Of a DNA stretch of 64,000 nucleotides, positions 45,601-54,481 are shown one piece after another. The stretch comes from Cyanobium sp. Morenito 9A2 (GTDB taxonomy: Bacteria; Cyanobacteriota; Cyanobacteriia; PCC-6307; Cyanobiaceae): positions 434,001 through 498,000 of the forward strand of contig NZ_JAGQBJ010000001.1 in NCBI RefSeq assembly GCF_024345575.1, given 5' to 3'. Both the position numbers and the translations under genes were made by a program. Each line of letters starts with the position of its first letter. The stretch's first letter is position 1. The notes beneath the pieces were generated by a model, which saw nothing but the letters and a program-made list of their open reading frames with translations, was not told where the DNA came from and did no database searches.

Positions 45601-46228
45601 GAGCGGCCAGATGGAGGTGATCGGCTTCGATCTCTACATGGAGATGCTGCAGGAATCGCTCGCCGAGATCCAGGGCCAGGACATCCCTGTGGTGGAGGAC
45701 ACCCAGATCGATCTGCCGATCACCGCTTTCATCCCCGCAGACTGGATCAGCGAAGGCGACGAGAAGATGGCCGCCTACCGCTCGGCGGCCGGTTGCAGCA
45801 GCAGGGGCGAACTGCTGGAACTGGCGGCCGCCTGGATCGACCGCTATGGCGCCCTGCCGTCCCCGGTGCAGGCGCTGCTGCAGCTGATGGAGCTCAAGCT
45901 GCTGGCCAGGCGCTGCGGCTTCTCGCGCCTCAGGGCCGAACAACCCAACCTGGTGCTCGAAACCCCGATGGAGGAGCCCGCCTTCCGGCTGCTGCGCCAG
46001 GGTCTGCCCACCCATCTCCATGGGCGTTTGGTGTACCAGGGCGGCTCCGGCAGCACCGCCAAGGTGCTGGCCCGGGGGCTGAGCGTGCTGAGCGCCGAGA
46101 GGCAGCTCGACACCCTGATGGAGTGGCTGCAGGCGATGGCGGAGCAGATCCCGGGCAGCGACGGGCTGAGCGAGGCCCAGCGGGGGGAGCAGGTGGCGGC
46201 GAAGAACGCGGCGGTGCTGGCGGTTTGA
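42692..46228 (+). CDS. mfd: Transcription-repair coupling factor
   Basis: Mfd removes stalled RNA polymerase and recruits UvrA. ATG 42692 gives 1178 residues, the normal size. The N-terminal UvrB-homology module (to about 350) contains [18 protein letters not shown]. It is followed by the RNA polymerase-interacting CarD-like domain ([20 protein letters not shown]), Walker [37 protein letters not shown] and [13 protein letters not shown], and a C-terminal regulatory domain. The final 23 codons are echoed at 47567-47635 in the decayed region. Confidence 0.97.
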
Positions 46229-46281
46229 GGAGGAAGTGGGGGCGATGCCCGTGCTCCACGAAACCCGTGTAGCTTGAGGCC

Positions 46282-46512
46282 ATGGCCAATCTCACCATCG
46301 CTCTCGATGCTGCGCTGCTACAGCGAGCTCGCGAAGCCGCCTTGAGGGAGAAGACCTCTGTGAATGCCCTGGTGCGAGATTTCCTGACCCGCTATGTGGA
46401 TGCCCGCAGTCAGCGCCTGGAGGCGTTGGCCAGTTTTGAAGCGGTCGCCGCCAGCAGCCAAGGCTTCAGCCACCAACCCTGGAGCCGAGAATCCCTCTAC
46501 GAACGCACCTGA
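46282..46512 (+). CDS. vapB: Ribbon-helix-helix antitoxin, VapB-like
   Basis: This 76-residue protein has an N-terminal strand and two helices (MANLTIALDAALLQRAREAA then KTSVNALVRDFLTRYVD) of a ribbon-helix-helix DNA-binding fold. The C-terminal part (SFEAVAASSQGFSHQPWSRE) is the likely toxin-binding tail. Its stop overlaps the vapC start, the classic antitoxin-first arrangement. It likely binds its own promoter, in the 53-base gap after mfd. Confidence 0.85.
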   Translation: MANLTIALDAALLQRAREAALREKTSVNALVRDFLTRYVDARSQRLEALASFEAVAASSQGFSHQPWSRESLYERT

Positions 46513-46952
46513 TGCGGGTGTTCGTGGATACCAACCTTTGGGTGTACCGCCTGGACCGGCGCGAGCCTGTCAAGGGTGAGCGCATCCGCCGCTGGCTCGC
46601 CGATCTGGCCGAGGACAACGACATCATCATCAGTACCCAGGTCCTGATCGAGTTGCGTGCGGTGGCGACCCGCAAACTTCGGCCTGCACTGGGCGACGCA
46701 AAGATCACGGCCCTGCTTGCCGCCATGGCTGGCTTTGAGGTGGTCAGCACGGAGCTGAATCTGGTTCTCGATGCCCATCAGTTGGCGGTGCGGCATCAGC
46801 TCAGTTGGTTTGATGCCCTGATCGCCGAGGCTACCCTCCGCAGCGGCTGCGCCGTGCTGTTCAGCGAAGACTTCACGCACGGCGTGACCATCGGTGCGCT
46901 GCAGGTGATCAACCCATTGCTTGATGGATGGCCGCCAGGCTGTGGCGCTTGA
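46512..46952 (+). CDS. vapC: PIN-domain toxin, VapC-like RNase
   Basis: This 146-residue PIN-domain ribonuclease starts RVFVDTNLWVYRLDRRE with the first active-site Asp. IISTQVLIELRAVATRKL supplies Glu, and LSWFDALIAEATLRSGCAVLFSEDF supplies the Asp pair and Glu. All four acidic positions are intact, so the toxin is probably active against RNA. It is one of two toxin-antitoxin loci at this site. The other is decayed. Confidence 0.88.
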   Translation: MRVFVDTNLWVYRLDRREPVKGERIRRWLADLAEDNDIIISTQVLIELRAVATRKLRPALGDAKITALLAAMAGFEVVSTELNLVLDAHQLAVRHQLSWFDALIAEATLRSGCAVLFSEDFTHGVTIGALQVINPLLDGWPPGCGA

Positions 46953-47181
46953 TCTCAGCGACCGTGAGGATGTAGAGGGGCGCCAACTCAAGCGGTGCGT
47001 GACCCTCCGTTCCTTGTGTCAGGGCCGAATTCAGAAGAAGACGATCAGTGATTGGCCTTAGTGGCAGACCTCTCCCCGCTGCCTGACCCTCACCGCCAGC
47101 ATCAGCAGATGGGCCGTTTGATCTGACCCTTCACTCGGTCGTCGCCAACCCGGCAACGCTTGAGGCCAGCGAGGTTGGCGC

Positions 47182-47473
47182 TTAATCCTTTGCGGCCTTG
47201 CGATCGAGCTTGCGGAGCTGCTGCGTGGCCCCAGGGATGAACTCACCCGTCCAGGACAAGGTCGTTCATGGGTTGATCTGGATGGATGGCAGGCTGGCCA
47301 GTTCGGCGCTGGAAGTCCAAGGCAGGGGCACCGAGGCAGACAGCTTCCAGGTCATCGAAGCCTTGCTCAATCGGTTCTCGCAGATCAAAGGCTTTGGTCC
47401 GGCCCGTCTCCAGGGCCAAACAACGCTCAAGTCGTCCTTCCCAGGCGGGATCCGGGCGAACGGAGGTGGCCAT
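47182..47473 (-). pseudogene. Frameshifted ORF of unknown family
   Basis: Read leftward from ATG 47473, the protein contains RLERCLALETGRTKAFDLRE and PALDFQRRTGQPAIHPDQPM, then a stop right after LVLDG at 47243. One base out of frame it continues plausibly as GEFIPGATQQLRKLDRKAAK to a stop at 47182. The total of 292 bases is one more than a multiple of three, consistent with a one-base insertion. I do not recognise the family. Confidence 0.45.
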
Positions 47474-47551
47474 GGATTCATCTGAACCGTTGCCTTCCCT
47501 CCAGCTGGCTTGGCTACCCGAGCACCAGGAACGATCACACCCCGCTCATCC

Positions 47552-47635
47552 GAGCATCCGGCGGCCGAGGGCCTGAGCGACGCCCAGCGGGCGGAGCAGG
47601 CCGTGGCCCGGAAGGCGGGGGGCTGGTGGTCTTGA
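47552..47635 (+). pseudogene. Duplicated 3' tail of mfd
   Basis: This stretch reads EHPAAEGLSDAQRAEQAVAR in frame to a TGA. The mfd end reads [20 protein letters not shown] and also ends in TGA. From GAG 47567 the first 33 bases match mfd 46160-46192 at 29 positions, and the stop is at the same distance, 69 bases. The remainder has drifted. It is only the tail, with no helicase sequence around it. Confidence 0.55.
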
Positions 47636-47639
47636 AGAG

Positions 47640-48019
47640 GAGTTGCTTGGTGAGCGGTATGGCCTCCAACCACGGCTCCTGCAGGGTCAGATCCAGGGCC
47701 GTGGCGATCCGTTCCAGCGCCATCGCCAACTGCTCTGGCGTGAGGCGCCCGAGCGGCCCATCGAGGTTGGTCCCGTCCACGGTGGTGGGATGCCAGGTCA
47801 TCGCATAGACGTGGTGCTGCAGCCCATTCGCTGGGCTGGGTTCCAACGCCACGGCCAGCAGCTGGCCCTCCAGGCGGGGATCACGGCTCAGTGGCACCAC
47901 ACCCGGCGCGTGCTGGCGCCATGGGCAGCCTCCGGCGAGATCACCAGCACCGGACGGACCTTCCTGTCGCCAAAGCTGCGGTGGCGGGGCCAGCGCTAGA
48001 GGCTCCCTCGTTCAGGCAT
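47640..48019 (-). pseudogene. Broken MazF/PemK-like toxin
   Basis: Leftward from ATG 48019 the frame reads MPERGSL, then TAG at 47998-47996, then RWPRHRSFGDRKVRPVLVIS, typical of MazF-type RNases (RPVLV-S core). A second stop lies at 47890. One frame over, the protein continues VVPLSRDPRLEGQLLAVALE and further to GPLGRLTPEQLAMALERIAT, the conserved end of this family. One nonsense and one frameshift mutation make it non-functional. It starts inside the antitoxin's last codons. Confidence 0.65.
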
Positions 48020-48253
48020 GGAGCCGCTCCAGCGCCTCGGTGCCCATCGCCTCCCCATCCGCGGTGGCTTCCTCCAGGTCACCCCCCTGGAGCTGGCTCA
48101 GATCGGCACCGGCCTGCTGGAGTTCCGCCAGGTGCCGAGGCCGCAGCCATGGACGGATCGCCTCGCTCACCGCCGCCGAGCGGTTGGTGCTGTGGGCATC
48201 GAGATCGGCCAGCAGGGCTCCTCCAGGGACAGGCTGATCGAGCCGGTGGCCAT
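48012..48253 (-). pseudogene. Broken ribbon-helix-helix antitoxin of the MazEF-like pair
   Basis: The ATG at 48253 reads MATGSISLSLEE, then, after the loss of one base near 48218, ALLADLDAHSTNRSAAVSEA and [16 protein letters not shown], ending ALERLHA with TGA at 48012. The strand-helix-helix start is a ribbon-helix-helix DNA-binding fold. The 242-base length is one short of a multiple of three. Its stop overlaps the toxin ATG, as in working toxin-antitoxin operons. Confidence 0.65.
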
Positions 48254-48333
48254 GGCCGTTGCCAGAATGGCTGCTAGTGATTCTCGGAGCCTTCAGGGCA
48301 GGACGGGCGCGCCGCTTCGATCGGGTGGGGAGT

Positions 48334-48486
48334 TCAGGCCCAGGGTTCGATCAACGCCGATCCGATCGGTGGACCCTCGCTGCTGGTGCGCGGGGCCAGG
48401 CCATCCAGCGCAAGGGAGCGGCCCAGCCCCGGCGGCATCAGCGCAGCGAAGACGTTGGTGACAAGCAGAAGCAACCGGGCCGCTCA
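48334..48486 (-). pseudogene. Coding-like C-terminal fragment
   Basis: A leftward frame of 49 residues after an in-frame stop reads LLLVTNVFAALMPPGLGRSL and then GPPIGSALIEPWA to TGA. The sequence immediately upstream also reads as protein in another frame (DLALSSSGNAQGIELDLPRH). It looks like the end of a decayed gene, but I cannot name the family and no start is evident. Confidence 0.3.
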
Positions 48487-48810
48487 AGTGACGGGGGAAC
48501 GCCATGGCGGGGCAGATCCAGCTCGATTCCCTGGGCATTGCCCGAGCTGCTGAGGGCGAGATCAGCCCGGCGCATCGGTTCGCCAGGGTGACAGGGAAGG
48601 CGGTGGCCGCAGGCGATGACCGGACCGCCTCAAGGAAGGGGAGAGCGAGTCGTTGGGTTCCGCACTTACGCCGTACCCCTTGGGCTCTTGGTAGTCGCCG
48701 CTACACGTGAATCTGAAAATACAGGGATGAAGCTGAAAGTTGCGTGAAAGCGTTAGCCAGAAGCCCCTACTCCTTCCCTATGGTCAGCTATTGCCAGCGC
48801 TCGCCCCTCC

Positions 48811-51800
48811 ATGGCCGTTTCTCTCACCAGCCTTGAAGTGCTCCTTCAAGACTGGAGAACCCAGCTCACGGCCTGGTCGATCGACGGCAGCCTGCGCAGC
48901 GCGGCCCGCACCGCCCTGCGGCTCCCCGATGGAGCCGATCCCGCGGCGCTCACCGGGCTGATCGCGGCCTGGGCCGCGGGCGATTTCGCCGGTCTCCCGC
49001 CGATTGAGGTGCTCGATGGCTCGGTGCTGCCCGGGGCGGCGGGGGCCTATGCGCTCAGCACGGGCACGATTTATCTCAATGGGGCTTGGCTGGCATCGGC
49101 GAGTGAGCAGCAGGTGATTGCCGTGCTCACGGAGGAGCTGGGGCATCATCTGGATGGGTTGTTGAATGCCAGTGATACGCCGGGGGATGAGGGGGAGTTG
49201 TTTGCAGCATTGATCGTTGAGAAAGAAGATTCTTCTATCGCGTGTATTCGAACCATTTCAGATAACGATCACGCATTATTGCAACTTATTGACGGCAGAA
49301 TAGTAGAGATCGAGCAATCAGTGCCATCCGACTTTGGAGTCAATCTAAACACGCCAAATTATACTAGCAACAGATTTTCAGGCACCACCGCACAGTATGG
49401 TTTCCAATGCACAACATATGCTTATGGCAGAGCGCTAGAAAAAGGTCTATACAGTGCAAATTTTAGCATATTCAACGCCCTCAATAACACCTATCCTGCT
49501 CATGGGGGTCTCTGGGATGATATCACAGGTGTGCAGAGCAAGACCCCCGTTGCAAATTCATTTATTGTATGGGACCCATTTACTGGCGGGACAAATGCAG
49601 AAGGGCATGTTGGCTTTGTTGAGCAGGTATTGGCTGATGGAACCTTGGTGGTAACTGAAGCGAACTACCCATCAGGAAGCACTTGGAGATCAATAAACAT
49701 ATCTCCTGGGACTTCTCGTTACACATCTGCAAAGTTTATTCGACTTGATGGTGGATCAGCGACTCCACCGTTGACCACACCAGAAGGCACTGACGATCGC
49801 TTAAAGCTGCCCATCTTCGATCCAGCGTACTATCTCGCAGCCAACGCCGATGTCAGAAATGCTTATGGGTCATCTAATATTGAAGGTGCTAAATCACATT
49901 GGCTTCAGTTCGGCATAGCAGAAGGCCGGCAAGGCTCATTAGTGTTCAATCCAAAGTATTACCTTCAGCAATTTCAAGATGTTGCCAATGCCTATGGCGC
50001 CACCAACTACGCCGGTGCCATCAGCCATTGGCTGGAGTGGGGCCTGAACTTTGGCCGCAGGGGTTCGGTTGAATTTGACCCTATTTATTACATGGCAGCT
50101 CACCCGGATGTGGAGCAAGCCTATGGGGTGATGAACTTCAGTGGTGCCATCAGTCACTACTACCAGTGGGGCAAGCCCGGTGGCTGGTATGGATCCGAAT
50201 GGATCACGGATTCAACAGCCTTTCAGCTTGGGTATTACCTGGCCAATAACGCAGATGTCAAGGCCGTTACCAACAATGCCAATCAGGAGGTGGAAGCCAC
50301 CCGGCACTGGTATTTCAACGGCATCAATGAAGGTCGCCGGGGTTCTCCAGAATTCGATCCAAAGTTTTATCTCGCCAAGTATGAAGATGTGCGAGCAGCC
50401 TATGGAGACAACAACTATCGCGGCGCCCTAGACAACTATCTGTTGTTTGGTAAAGCTGGTGGCCGAATCGGAGCGGACGATACGCCCCGCACCCTCTCCA
50501 TCAACGATGTTGGTATCATTGAAGGAAGTTCAGGTTCCCAATTCCTCGTCTTTACAGTATCTCTCAATATTGTTTTCGGTGACCCAGTTGCCGTGAGCTA
50601 CAGCACGGCCAATGGAACCGCCACAGATGGCAGTGACTACAGAGCAATCAGTGGCAGCCTGAGTTTCGCTCCGGGAGAAACATCAAAATCGATCAGTATT
50701 GAGATCTTTGGTGACAACACCTTCGAGAGCGATGAAACATTCACAGTGAATTTAAGTGGGTCCTCCAATGCCTCCATCGTCAAAGGGCAGGGTGTTGGCA
50801 CGATCGGTAACGACGATCCGCAGATTGTGAACGAGGGCAAAGCCACCTTCTCCCTTGCGGGCACCCCAACGGTTGGTCAGATCCTTACAGCGTCCAAAAC
50901 TTCAGACGACCCAGATGGGAATGGCAGTTTTAGCTACCTCTGGCAATCCAGTGCCGACGGGAATTCATGGGTCAACATCGGCAGCAATTCTCCCACGCAG
51001 CTCCTTGGTTTTGCCGAAGCTGGCAAACAAGTTCGAGTCAATATCTCTTACATCGATGGCGATGGTTTTGCCGAAGTAGTGTCCGCGCCTCCCCTTCTCG
51101 TCGGACGTGGGGCTGTTCTGGCCGCGATCGCGGGAATCACCGACAACACAGGCTTGATTCAAGGAGCGATCGCCCCCGCAGGTCGCACAGACGATCGCAC
51201 CCCCACGATCACCGGCACCTTTTCAGCGCCGCTTGTGGCGGGTGAATCCGTTCGGATCTTTAACGGAACCAGCCTCCTGGGGAATGCAGTGGTCAACAAC
51301 ACCACTGGAACCTGGAGCTACACCCCCACCCTGCCCATCACACCCGGCACCAGTTATTCGATCACCGCCCGTGTGGCCGATGCCGCCGGCAACCCCGGCC
51401 CCGCGTCAACGGCGCGCCGCTTCACGCTCGATGCCACCGCGCCGCTCACCACCGCAGCGATCACCAGCGTCAGCGATAACGCTGGGCTCCTCCAGGGCAC
51501 CGTCGCCCCGAGTGGTCGCACGGATGATCTGGCCCCCACGATCACCGGAACTGTCTCCGTCGCCCTGGTGAGTGGCGAAACCCTGCGGATCTTCAATGGC
51601 GCCGTCCTGCTGGGGAATGCCACCGTCAACAACTCCGCCAAGACCTGGAGTTACACCCCCACGCTGCCGGCCACTACCGGCACCAGTTATTCGATCACCG
51701 CCCGTGTGGCCGATGCCGCCGGCAATCTTGGCGTGGCCTCAACGGCGCGCAGGTTCACGCTCGATACCACCGCGCCGCTCACCACCGCAGCGATCACCAG

Positions 51801-52904
51801 CGTCAGCGATAACGCTGGGCTCCTTCAGGGCACCGTTGCCCCAGGTGGTCGCACGGATGATCTGACCCCCACGATCACCGGAACTGTCTCCGTCGCCCTG
51901 GTGAGTGGCGAAACCCTGCGCCTCTTCCATGGCAGCACCCTGTTGGGCAACGCCACCGTCAACAACTCGGCCAAGACCTGGAGTTACACCCCACCCTGCC
52001 CATCACACCCGGCACCAGTTATTCGATCACCGCGCGCGTCGCCGATGCCGCGGGCAATCTTGGCCCCGCTTCTGCCGCACGCAGCTTCACGCTCGATACC
52101 ACCGCGCCCTCGATTGTTTCGTCTTCGCCCTTCGATGGGGCCATCGGTATCGAGTCAGCCGCCAACATTCGCCTCACCTTCTCAGAAGACATCCAGCGCG
52201 GAACGGGCACCATTCAGTTGCGTGTCGGATCGGCCGCTGGACCGATCACCGAAAGTTTTGATGCCGCCACGAGCACTCGGATCAGCCTGAGCGGCTCGGC
52301 CGTCACGGTCAATCCCACCAGCAACCTGGCGCCCAACACCCGCTACTTCCTCACTTTCCCAGCAGGTTCCCTGGTCGACACCGCCGGCAATCCGTTCGCC
52401 GGCACCAGCACCTATGACTTCCGCACCATCAATGCCGTTTCTGGGAGCTCCACCAACGACATCCTCTCCTTCACCAGCACCGTCGATCGCCTCACTGGCC
52501 TGGCCGGCGGTGACACCTTCCGGCTCACCTCCCTGAGCCATGCCCTGCTCCCCACCGCAGCGGGCACAGCGATCGATCGGATCAGCGATCTGGTCACCGG
52601 CCTCGACGGCATTGACGCCCCGGTCGCCCGCGCCCTGGCCGCGGCGGTGAACCCCGTGGCTCTGGGGTCGGTGGCTGAGCTCAGCCCAGCGGCAATCGCG
52701 GCGCTGCTGACGACCACCAGCTTCACCGCCCTCACCACCACCTCCAGCGGCGGCGCCGCCACCTTCTCTTTCGCCGATCCAGTGGCCGGCACCCGCACCT
52801 TCCTGGCGATCAACGATGGCGTTGCCGGCTTCTTCGCCGCCACCGATTCCATCCTCGAGATCACTGGGTTCAGCGGCAGCCTGTCGGCGTTGCAGGTGTT
52901 CTGA
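48811..52904 (+). CDS. Large secreted/surface protein: CHAP, 43-47-aa repeats, Calx-beta, Ig-like repeats, bluetail end; one frameshift
   Basis: If one C is restored near 51989-51992, the gene encodes about 1364 residues. Residues 1-130 are a domain with TEELGHHLDGLLN, common at the start of cyanobacterial giant surface proteins. A CHAP amidohydrolase domain follows with candidate catalytic Cys200 (FQCTTYAYG), His266 (EGHVGFVE) and Glu283. Then come five 43-47-residue repeats (FDPxYYL...DVxxAYG...HW...GRxGS, residues 336-557), a Calx-beta domain (560-670), three 111-residue Ig-like repeats (from 770), a Big_5-like domain (PFDGAIGIESAANIRLTFSE), and a C-terminus like bluetail surface proteins (TRTFLAINDGVAGFFAATDS). 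There is no N-terminal signal peptide. As written, the frame ends at 52290. Base composition is mosaic. Confidence 0.75.
51117..52107 (+). repeat. Three 333-base coding repeats (Ig-like units)
   Basis: Units begin near 51117, 51448 and 51781. Units 2 and 3 are nearly identical over long stretches (for example the DNA around 51451 and 51784, exactly 333 bases apart), while unit 1 is more divergent. Each encodes a 111-residue Ig-like domain with TITGTVSVALVSGETLR. Such identity favours slippage, gene conversion or unequal recombination within the gene. The frameshift lies in unit 3. Confidence 0.85.
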
Positions 52905-52980
52905 GCCGTCATCCAACGCTGACCGGCTGCAGGGGCTGAACACAAGCGCCCTGCCAGCACAGGCATCGATGGCCTCTGGT

Positions 52981-53007
52981 CGCCAGCCGGTCCCAGGTCG
53001 GCTGGCG
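52981..53007. terminator. Strong hairpin after the large surface-protein gene
   Basis: CGCCAGCCG and CGGCTGGCG form a perfect 9-base stem around a 9-base loop, 77 bases after the stop. No T tract follows, so it may act as an mRNA end stabiliser or a Rho-free terminator of the weak-tract type found in cyanobacteria. Confidence 0.4.
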
Positions 53008-53049
53008 CGACGGAGCCCACCCTCCCTCACAGAAAGCGCAATATGCCGT

Positions 53050-53055
53050 TACAAT
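53050..53055 (+). promoter_or_regulatory. Possible -10 promoter element for the 58-aa ORF
   Basis: TACAAT is a near-consensus sigma70 -10 hexamer, 29 bases before the ATG at 53084 in a locally AT-richer stretch. No good -35 box is visible at 16-18 bases. Confidence 0.35.
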
Positions 53056-53083
53056 CGGGCAACAACCGTTCACAACAATTCCC

Positions 53084-53260
53084 ATGGGTGAGTTGCTGCA
53101 GAGTACCGATGGCGCCTTCAGCAGCCTCAGCCTCGTTTCCGCCCTGGCAAGTATGGCGGCCCTTGCCTTGTTTGCCCTCTTCCAGAGCGCCAGTGAAAAC
53201 GATGACGACGATTCCACCCCCGGCGGCGGCCTGATGCAGCCAGTGGGCAGCGCCGCCTGA
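53084..53260 (+). CDS. 58-aa single-helix membrane protein, unknown
   Basis: ATG 53084 starts MGELLQSTDGAFSSLSLVSA, runs through a hydrophobic helix (LASMAALALFALFQS) and ends with an acidic patch (ENDDDDS) and a Gly-rich tail. It has its own likely -10 element and sits alone between the surface-protein gene and the HExxH gene. The helix plus acidic tail is a coherent small protein design, but I recognise no family. It may be specific to picocyanobacteria. Confidence 0.55.
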   Translation: MGELLQSTDGAFSSLSLVSALASMAALALFALFQSASENDDDDSTPGGGLMQPVGSAA

Positions 53261-53360
53261 GCTCCGTTGGCCGGACACATCCGGTCGGATCTTCCCGGCC
53301 ACCCTCGCTTCTGAAGGTCACTTGGTGGCCACAAGCTGGTGGAACGCTCCAGCCCCGCCC

Positions 53361-53915
53361 ATGGAACGCCCGCCGGCCTTGCCGGGCCGCTGCTGCAGGA
53401 GACGATCCTTGGAGCTGTTGCTCGCTCTGGTTCTTTCACTGCTGGCTCCGATCACGGCCGCAGCCGCCTCAGACAACCACTGGTGGGCCATTGATCGCCT
53501 CCGCCAGCAGCTTTCTGCCCACGGGGTGCAGGTGGTGCAGCGCAATTGCGGCCAGCAGGGCTTGCAGGGGCTATACCACCGGCCCAGCGACACCATCGTG
53601 ATCTGCAGGGTGCACGACGCTCCGTTGGCGGTGTGGAACACCCTGGCCCATGAAGCCACCCATCGCATGCAGGTCTGCCTGGGCGGGCCGATCACGGACC
53701 CGCGGCACCGCCCGTTGATGCTTACGGCCCTGGCCCGGACCTCGCCAGAGGAATGGCGCTCCCTCCAGAGCTACCCGGCCACGGAGCGCCTCAGTGAGCT
53801 GGAAGCGCGCTACACAGCCCAGCTGCCCCCCGAGCAGGTGCTCCAGCTGTTTGAGCTCTATTGCGGTCGGCGCCCCTCCCAAGGCCTCGCTCATTTCACC
53901 CCTCCCCTGCCATGA
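53361..53915 (+). CDS. Secreted HExxH protein, possible metallopeptidase
   Basis: ATG 53361 gives 184 residues (TTG 53322 adds 13). A basic n-region followed by LELLLALVLSLLAPITAAAA is a signal peptide. The mature protein has WNTLAHEATHRMQVCLGG, an HExxH helix, then Glu-rich SELEARYTAQLPPEQV (possible third ligand) and a late Cys (LYCGRRPS), which could pair with an earlier one. The HExxHxxQxC pattern matches the protein at 41040. The next gene starts at its stop (ATGA). Confidence 0.65.
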   Translation: MERPPALPGRCCRRRSLELLLALVLSLLAPITAAAASDNHWWAIDRLRQQLSAHGVQVVQRNCGQQGLQGLYHRPSDTIVICRVHDAPLAVWNTLAHEATHRMQVCLGGPITDPRHRPLMLTALARTSPEEWRSLQSYPATERLSELEARYTAQLPPEQVLQLFELYCGRRPSQGLAHFTPPLP

Positions 53916-54442
53916 ACAGCACAATTCTTTCTCTGCTGCTGAGCGCCTTGGGCCCATTCAGTGGCTTCGGGGGTGGTCTGCTTCCGGGCCTTGGACTCGG
54001 GATGGGGTCAGGATTCGGGGCCGGTTCGGGTGGCGTCCTCCAGCCGTGGCCGGGCGCCTACGGCGCTGGTTCAGGCCGGGGAGGGGAACCGCTGCAGGCC
54101 TTGCCCGTGCAGACCCTGGCGCTGGTGCGCTGCCTGCACCAGGAGGGGATGATCGGCGCGGAACAGGCCCAGCAGTTGATCGAGCGGCAGGGCTGGCGGC
54201 GCGGCTGGCCAGTCGACTGGGCGAACAGCATCGGTCCCGGCCAGGTGGATCAGATGCTCATCGCTGCCGGGGGCTGCCGCCCTCTGATGGCGGCGCTCCA
54301 GCGCAACGGCAGTCGCGTCGTCACCCAACCGGGCGCCGCGCCCTCCTGGGACGGCAATCCCGGCCATGACCCAGGTCTCAACCCCAGCCAGGGGGGCAGC
54401 CTGAGTGAAAACGAGGGATTCGGCCTGGCGCCATACCGCTGA
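53912..54442 (+). CDS. Unknown Gly-rich protein, about 176 aa
   Basis: The ATG at 53912 overlaps the previous stop. A hydrophobic start (MNSTILSLLLSALGPF) may be a signal or anchor. A Gly-rich stretch follows, then a helical part (QALPVQTLALVRCLHQEGMI and EQAQQLIERQGWRRGW). The end is Gly/Asn/Pro-rich. The two-helix unit recalls small periplasmic helical repeats but is not diagnostic. Coupling with the HExxH gene suggests a shared role, unproven. Confidence 0.55.
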   Translation: MNSTILSLLLSALGPFSGFGGGLLPGLGLGMGSGFGAGSGGVLQPWPGAYGAGSGRGGEPLQALPVQTLALVRCLHQEGMIGAEQAQQLIERQGWRRGWPVDWANSIGPGQVDQMLIAAGGCRPLMAALQRNGSRVVTQPGAAPSWDGNPGHDPGLNPSQGGSLSENEGFGLAPYR

Positions 54443-54481
54443 GCGGAAGCAAGGGGCTCGGCTGGCGAAGCGACCCGCGAC

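Follow-up and report, generated by a model that had tools for sequence, protein, structure and literature searches.

Two groups of described proteins are among the closest to the protein considered here. The RTX/type I-secreted exoproteins of cyanobacteria (PMC3034196) share with it the lack of a signal peptide, the presence of Calx-beta and an inferred C-terminal export region, and CHAP hydrolases, such as the tail lysins of staphylococcal phages and SAOUHSC_02979 (PDB 5t1q), have the same conserved Cys, His and Glu. The gene for this protein lies in the 3.10-Mb genome (26 contigs) of Cyanobium sp. Morenito 9A2, within a 64,000-nucleotide stretch of DNA analysed as a whole and hereafter called the window. 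It consists of two frame pieces, whose features are collected in Table 1. With confidence slightly better than even, we read its product as a modular extracellular peptidoglycan hydrolase, exported by a type I system and composed of an exchangeable catalytic head and an EExxH zincin-fold header (the N-module).

Table 1. Features of the gene in window coordinates, with scores from the Pfam and NCBIfam scans of the two frame pieces.
Feature	Position	Strand	Evidence
Whole gene	48811-52904	+	two frame pieces
N-terminal EExxH zincin-like module (N-module), residues 1-171	48811..49323	+	AlphaFold2, Foldseek/VIA, genome counts
TEELGHHLD motif of the N-module	49129-49155	+	
GDEG of the N-module	residues 125-128	+	
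CHAP domain (Cys200, His266, Glu283), residues 192-285	49384..49665	+	PF05257, 45.1 bits (gathering 26); alignment with solved CHAP domains
Five FDPxYYLxxxxDVxxAYG...EGRRGS repeats	49789..50481	+	repeat positions; identity to L124/L238
Calx-beta domain, residues 579-652	50545..50766	+	PF03160, 64.3 bits (gathering 27)
Three tandem Big_13-like Ig repeats	51178..51993	+	PF19077, 45.8 bits (gathering 27), first frame piece
Big_5 Ig-like domain	52095..52427	+	PF13205, 81.6 bits (gathering 23.6), second frame piece
Segment resembling the serralysin C-terminus (NDxLxF...DTFRL...DxIxDL..GxDxID)	52431..52730	+	NF035945, weak: 21.1 bits, E 1.5e-4, far below cut-off
Bluetail C-terminal domain, residues 253-298 of the 302-residue C-terminal piece	52752..52889	+	NF041519, 50.0 bits (cut-off 21)

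Pfam and NCBIfam profile scans were run on both frame pieces, and the CHAP, Calx-beta, Big_5 and bluetail domains that an initial annotation had read from motifs all scored above the curated cut-offs. Its three Ig-like repeats were likewise recovered, as three tandem Big_13-like units, the third being cut by the frame break, with its end scoring 16.9 bits in the second frame. The five FDPxYYL-type repeats that it had counted are also present, starting near residues 333, 377, 420, 463 and 513, between CHAP and Calx-beta; their length, given there as 43–47 residues, was found to range from 43 to 50, unit 4 being the longest at about 50. No Pfam or NCBIfam model matches these repeats.

The reading frame is lost once, near position 51,990; the first open frame extends as far as 52290, and Big_5 and bluetail lie in the second, which reaches 52904. 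The break is spanned with one gap by four related stretches, one from an upstream repeat within the gene itself and three from other genomes, and a relative in Cyanobium sp. Cruz-8D1 (L124) is intact, with a single open frame of 1548 codons. Because of this break, the copy in the window may not make the tail. Whether or not any of the functional readings discussed below holds, the break could be real rather than a sequencing error and the window copy a decaying pseudogene. The frame is lost relative to all relatives, a copy in another genome (G611) has several stops and a paralogue in the same genome has an in-frame stop; nevertheless, the lesion is single and lies in a repeat-rich, C-rich stretch, all else is open, and the protein is highly similar to its relatives on either side of the break, so that we regard decay as possible but the less probable case.

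The catalytic residues of the CHAP domain were located exactly at the positions claimed for them, and in alignments with CHAP domains of solved structure Cys200, His266 and Glu283 match the corresponding Cys, His and Glu residues. From its sequence, we infer that the domain is a candidate peptidoglycan hydrolase. CHAP relatives of the window gene are rare, being present in three of 197 genomes, its own included. A recent phage origin of the domain was also considered and found no support, the best phage matches, tail lysins of staphylococcal phages, being about 31–35% identical.

CHAP and M23 domains have unrelated folds, and both cleave peptidoglycan peptides. In the Cruz-8D1 relative, a Peptidase_M23 domain (102.9–104 bits), with its HxxxD and HxH motifs retained, is situated between the N-module and the repeats, where the window protein has CHAP. 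Both proteins carry the N-module, repeats, Calx-beta, Ig, Big_5 and bluetail in the same order, and they are 50% identical in the N-module, 57% over residues 327–1061 and 72% over the last 302 residues; unlike the window protein, the relative (1548 residues) has M23 for CHAP, an extra cadherin-like/Calx-beta stretch and an intact frame. From about residue 327–330 onwards, the window protein shares its body with L124 and L238, at a protein identity of 57–87%, and DNA similarity of the body starts at gene position 978 (window 49788). In the G611 copy, the repeat region is 87% identical to that of the window gene, and upstream of it are an N-module remnant and an M23-like remnant, interrupted by several stops. 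A genome of a different family within the class (G171) encodes an N-module with CHAP (52.3 bits) immediately after it, succeeded by DUF4214, PA14, PPC and a lipase domain. Since two unrelated wall-hydrolase folds occupy one slot, the CHAP/M23 swap, known from a single intact relative with M23 and from a decayed copy, argues for peptidoglycan as the putative substrate and is the best evidence for it. Such an exchange would illustrate the re-arming of an exported wall hydrolase in cyanobacteria, and the CHAP and M23 proteins form a pair suited to a direct test of the target. The two heads also bear on the proposal of a structural or adhesive surface protein whose CHAP is inactive or merely binds peptidoglycan. 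Most of the protein is stalk-like, and many N-module proteins carry non-enzymatic repeats (RTX, Calx-beta, RCC1), as this proposal would have it; we consider it improbable, given that CHAP keeps its catalytic Cys, His and Glu and that the substitute M23 likewise keeps its motifs.

The bluetail domain is the only copy in the genome. In other genomes, bluetail-type tails related to it stand behind GH9 cellulase and reprolysin-like peptidase heads, a variety that would be expected if the tail serves export or attachment. The model of the tail (pLDDT 50, pTM 0.37) was too poor for a fold search, and a search of the literature found nothing on the bluetail domain. The lack of a signal peptide, noted in the initial annotation, was borne out by a hydropathy heuristic applied to 116 members of the N-module family: no hydrophobic stretch precedes the N-module in 110 of them, and the remaining six look like translated upstream non-coding DNA. 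The type I-like route proposed there could be matched with HlyB-, HlyD- and TolC-like genes in the genome, none of them adjacent to the window gene. Type I exporters are often, though not always, encoded beside their substrates. Contig C26 encodes a HlyB-type transporter (721 bits, just under the cut-off of 725.55), a HlyD-like adaptor and a PpiC-related protein; contig C13 encodes LssB-like ABC proteins and HlyD (323 bits); and three TolC-like OEP proteins are present in the genome, the substrate gene itself being on contig C1. Within the family, a full-length HlyB match was found in all 22 tested genomes with the N-module vs 12 of 18 without it (Fisher p 0.005), an association confounded by genome reduction in small genomes and by relatedness. 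An N-module gene whose product has an additional N-terminal domain (G019; L252, 11116–15633, minus strand) lies about 3.4 kb from hlyB-hlyD. Taken together, the window protein is probably exported by a type I system. Remodelling of the producer's own wall, e.g. in cell separation, is a role that CHAP and M23 domains have in many bacteria, but it is very hard to reconcile with a protein that has no signal peptide for the periplasm, a long stalk and a surface-type tail, and whose gene is missing from a genome of the same genus (G001).

In that genome and in two others (G031, G046), mfd is closely followed by a small membrane-protein ORF and then by ctpA. In the window, 6.8 kb separate mfd from this ORF (53084) and 1.2 kb separate the ORF from ctpA. 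Other genes lie between mfd and ctpA in G019, and in G059 an operon of the hlyD-hlyB-PpiC type, a type I exporter, is situated on the ctpA side of the interval. Because the mfd-ctpA interval varies between genomes, the window gene is taken to be accessory cargo.

Several further features were observed in this interval (window 46233–54480), an insertion hotspot that is nearly empty in G001, G031 and G046. A PIN-domain protein (46512–46952, plus strand; PF01850, 60.6 bits) is a possible toxin of a toxin-antitoxin pair. The small membrane-type protein (53084–53260, plus strand; 58 residues) is conserved in relatives, where it too lies between mfd and ctpA, and a protein with an AHEATH motif (HExxH) and weak family matches (53322–53915, plus strand) lies in the 1.2-kb stretch, absent from G001. 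Positions 47555–47640 resemble the 3' end of mfd (46150–46235), perhaps as the echo of an insertion event.

An accessory gene within an insertion hotspot, a single body bearing either of two unrelated wall-hydrolase folds and the nearest phage CHAP matches being tail lysins would all suit an inter-bacterial weapon, that is, a displayed or released bacteriolysin whose CHAP or M23 head kills competitors, and a protein exported in one step would not attack the wall of its producer. We nonetheless hold this reading to be unlikely: inspection of the neighbouring genes revealed no obvious immunity gene beside the window gene, the same N-module and tail families bear cellulases, lipases and proteases, and Gram-negative neighbours have an outer membrane. 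General extracellular hydrolysis fits at least as well, because N-modules and bluetail-type tails also accompany those other enzymes. Consequently, of the secreted cell-wall hydrolase with an inter-bacterial or wall-remodelling effector role that had originally been suggested, the secreted, surface-type hydrolase is supported, in agreement with the CHAP residues, the bluetail, the missing signal peptide, the HlyB/HlyD and TolC-like genes and the M23 of the relative; the effector role is possible but less likely, no immunity-like gene having been recognised on inspection of the neighbourhood.

The N-module had been recorded as a TEELGHHLD domain with no signal peptide, which was correct, but its zincin-like identity and its presence across cyanobacteria had been missed. 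It has four copies in its own genome; a single-sequence search matched 22 of 119 relatives, and a profile search matched 126 of the 390 genomes surveyed in the class, a single genome giving as many as nine matches. Members are also present in Candidatus Accumulibacter. The proteins that it heads vary in length between fewer than 500 and several thousand residues and contain RTX, Calx-beta, RCC1, PPC, M10, S8, lipase-type and other domains, the survey of downstream domains giving at least 25 families. The N-module of the window protein falls below every Pfam cut-off (best M48, 17.1 bits vs 20.3) and is unnamed by any NCBIfam model. Across 27 members, zincins are the commonest weak Pfam matches (M48 in 10, SprT in 5 and M43 in 4). 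The best PDB sequence matches of the profile, Ste24p (E 0.03) and HtpX (E 0.11), are not significant, and their alignments put EExGH (EELGH) on HExGH. An AlphaFold2 model of the N-module (pLDDT 87.4, pTM 0.83) gave selecase (prob 0.99), SPRTN, jannalysin, ZMPSTE24, BlaR1 and deuterolysin as top Foldseek matches, with moderate E-values (best 8e-3, none below 0.001). VIA-align of the model reached Z values of up to 6.8, in a range (under 8) that may reflect a common arrangement, and most of the top matches were zincins. Since fold, motif position and weak profile matches agree, the N-module is predicted to be a zincin fold, minigluzincin-like.

The first residue of the motif, where zincins have a key metal-binding His, is Glu (EExxH for HExxH) in 113 of 116 aligned members. 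As the 11-row collection scan used EE-containing patterns, residue statistics were drawn from an unbiased subset of members not selected by the EE pattern (n = 50), in which Glu is first in 48 and His in one. A GDEG motif is conserved after EExxH, with E127, a candidate for the third Glu ligand of zincins, at the start of the next helix (127–136) in the predicted model. We also observed an N-module with the canonical HELGH, followed by RCC1-like repeats, in a 375-aa minus-strand ORF (L118), and a paralogue in the same genome (L034; G000:C1:515194–515658) whose N-module has an in-frame stop at its start. A LapA-type retention module with a LapG site was rejected because the di-alanine is not conserved in relatives: the window N-module has GAAG, but its relatives have GAYG, GALG or GARG.

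A literature search found no description of the EELGH motif, and the N-module is apparently a widespread, undescribed metalloprotease-like fold. A more speculative proposal, to which we give little weight, is that it represents a new metallopeptidase-like family whose Glu-Glu-x-x-His site would bind metal and act during or after type I export; if so, the N-module might free its own protein by cleavage or anchor it at the surface. Establishing if the N-module acts as an enzyme, a pseudo-enzyme or a part for export or anchoring would shed light on the way in which exported proteins of cyanobacteria are displayed.

According to the reading that we favour, a type I-exported peptidoglycan hydrolase, the protein, which lacks a signal peptide, would most likely leave the cell in a single step through a HlyB/HlyD/TolC-type system whose genes lie elsewhere in the genome, with the export information located at the C-terminus, in the stretch from Big_5 to bluetail. 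On the outside, a stalk made up of the FDPxYYL repeats, Calx-beta and the Ig-like domains would hold or display CHAP, which would cut the peptidoglycan of other cells or debris. CHAP would be one of several exchangeable heads, M23 occupying the same slot in a relative, and the N-module would serve as a common header of many exported cyanobacterial proteins.

Compared with the CHAP hydrolases mentioned above, the window protein is cyanobacterial and has no signal peptide, a zincin-like header and a Calx-beta/Ig/bluetail stalk. The predicted fold of that header is shared with minigluzincins and related zincins (selecase, jannalysin and abylysin; HtpX/Ste24 of M48; SPRTN), from which the N-module differs in its EExxH, its conserved GDEG and its being embedded in large exported proteins. 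Like the RTX/type I exoproteins, other N-module proteins contain RTX repeats; unlike those exoproteins, the window protein has no match to the RTX nonapeptide repeats (GGxGxDxUx, PF00353) in either frame piece, terminates in a bluetail and has no adjacent exporter. Finally, polymorphic toxins combine a conserved body with an exchangeable toxic domain; here, few cases of exchange are known, the exchanged domain is N-proximal, and CHAP and M23, which replace one another on the conserved body, would be no more than candidate toxic domains.
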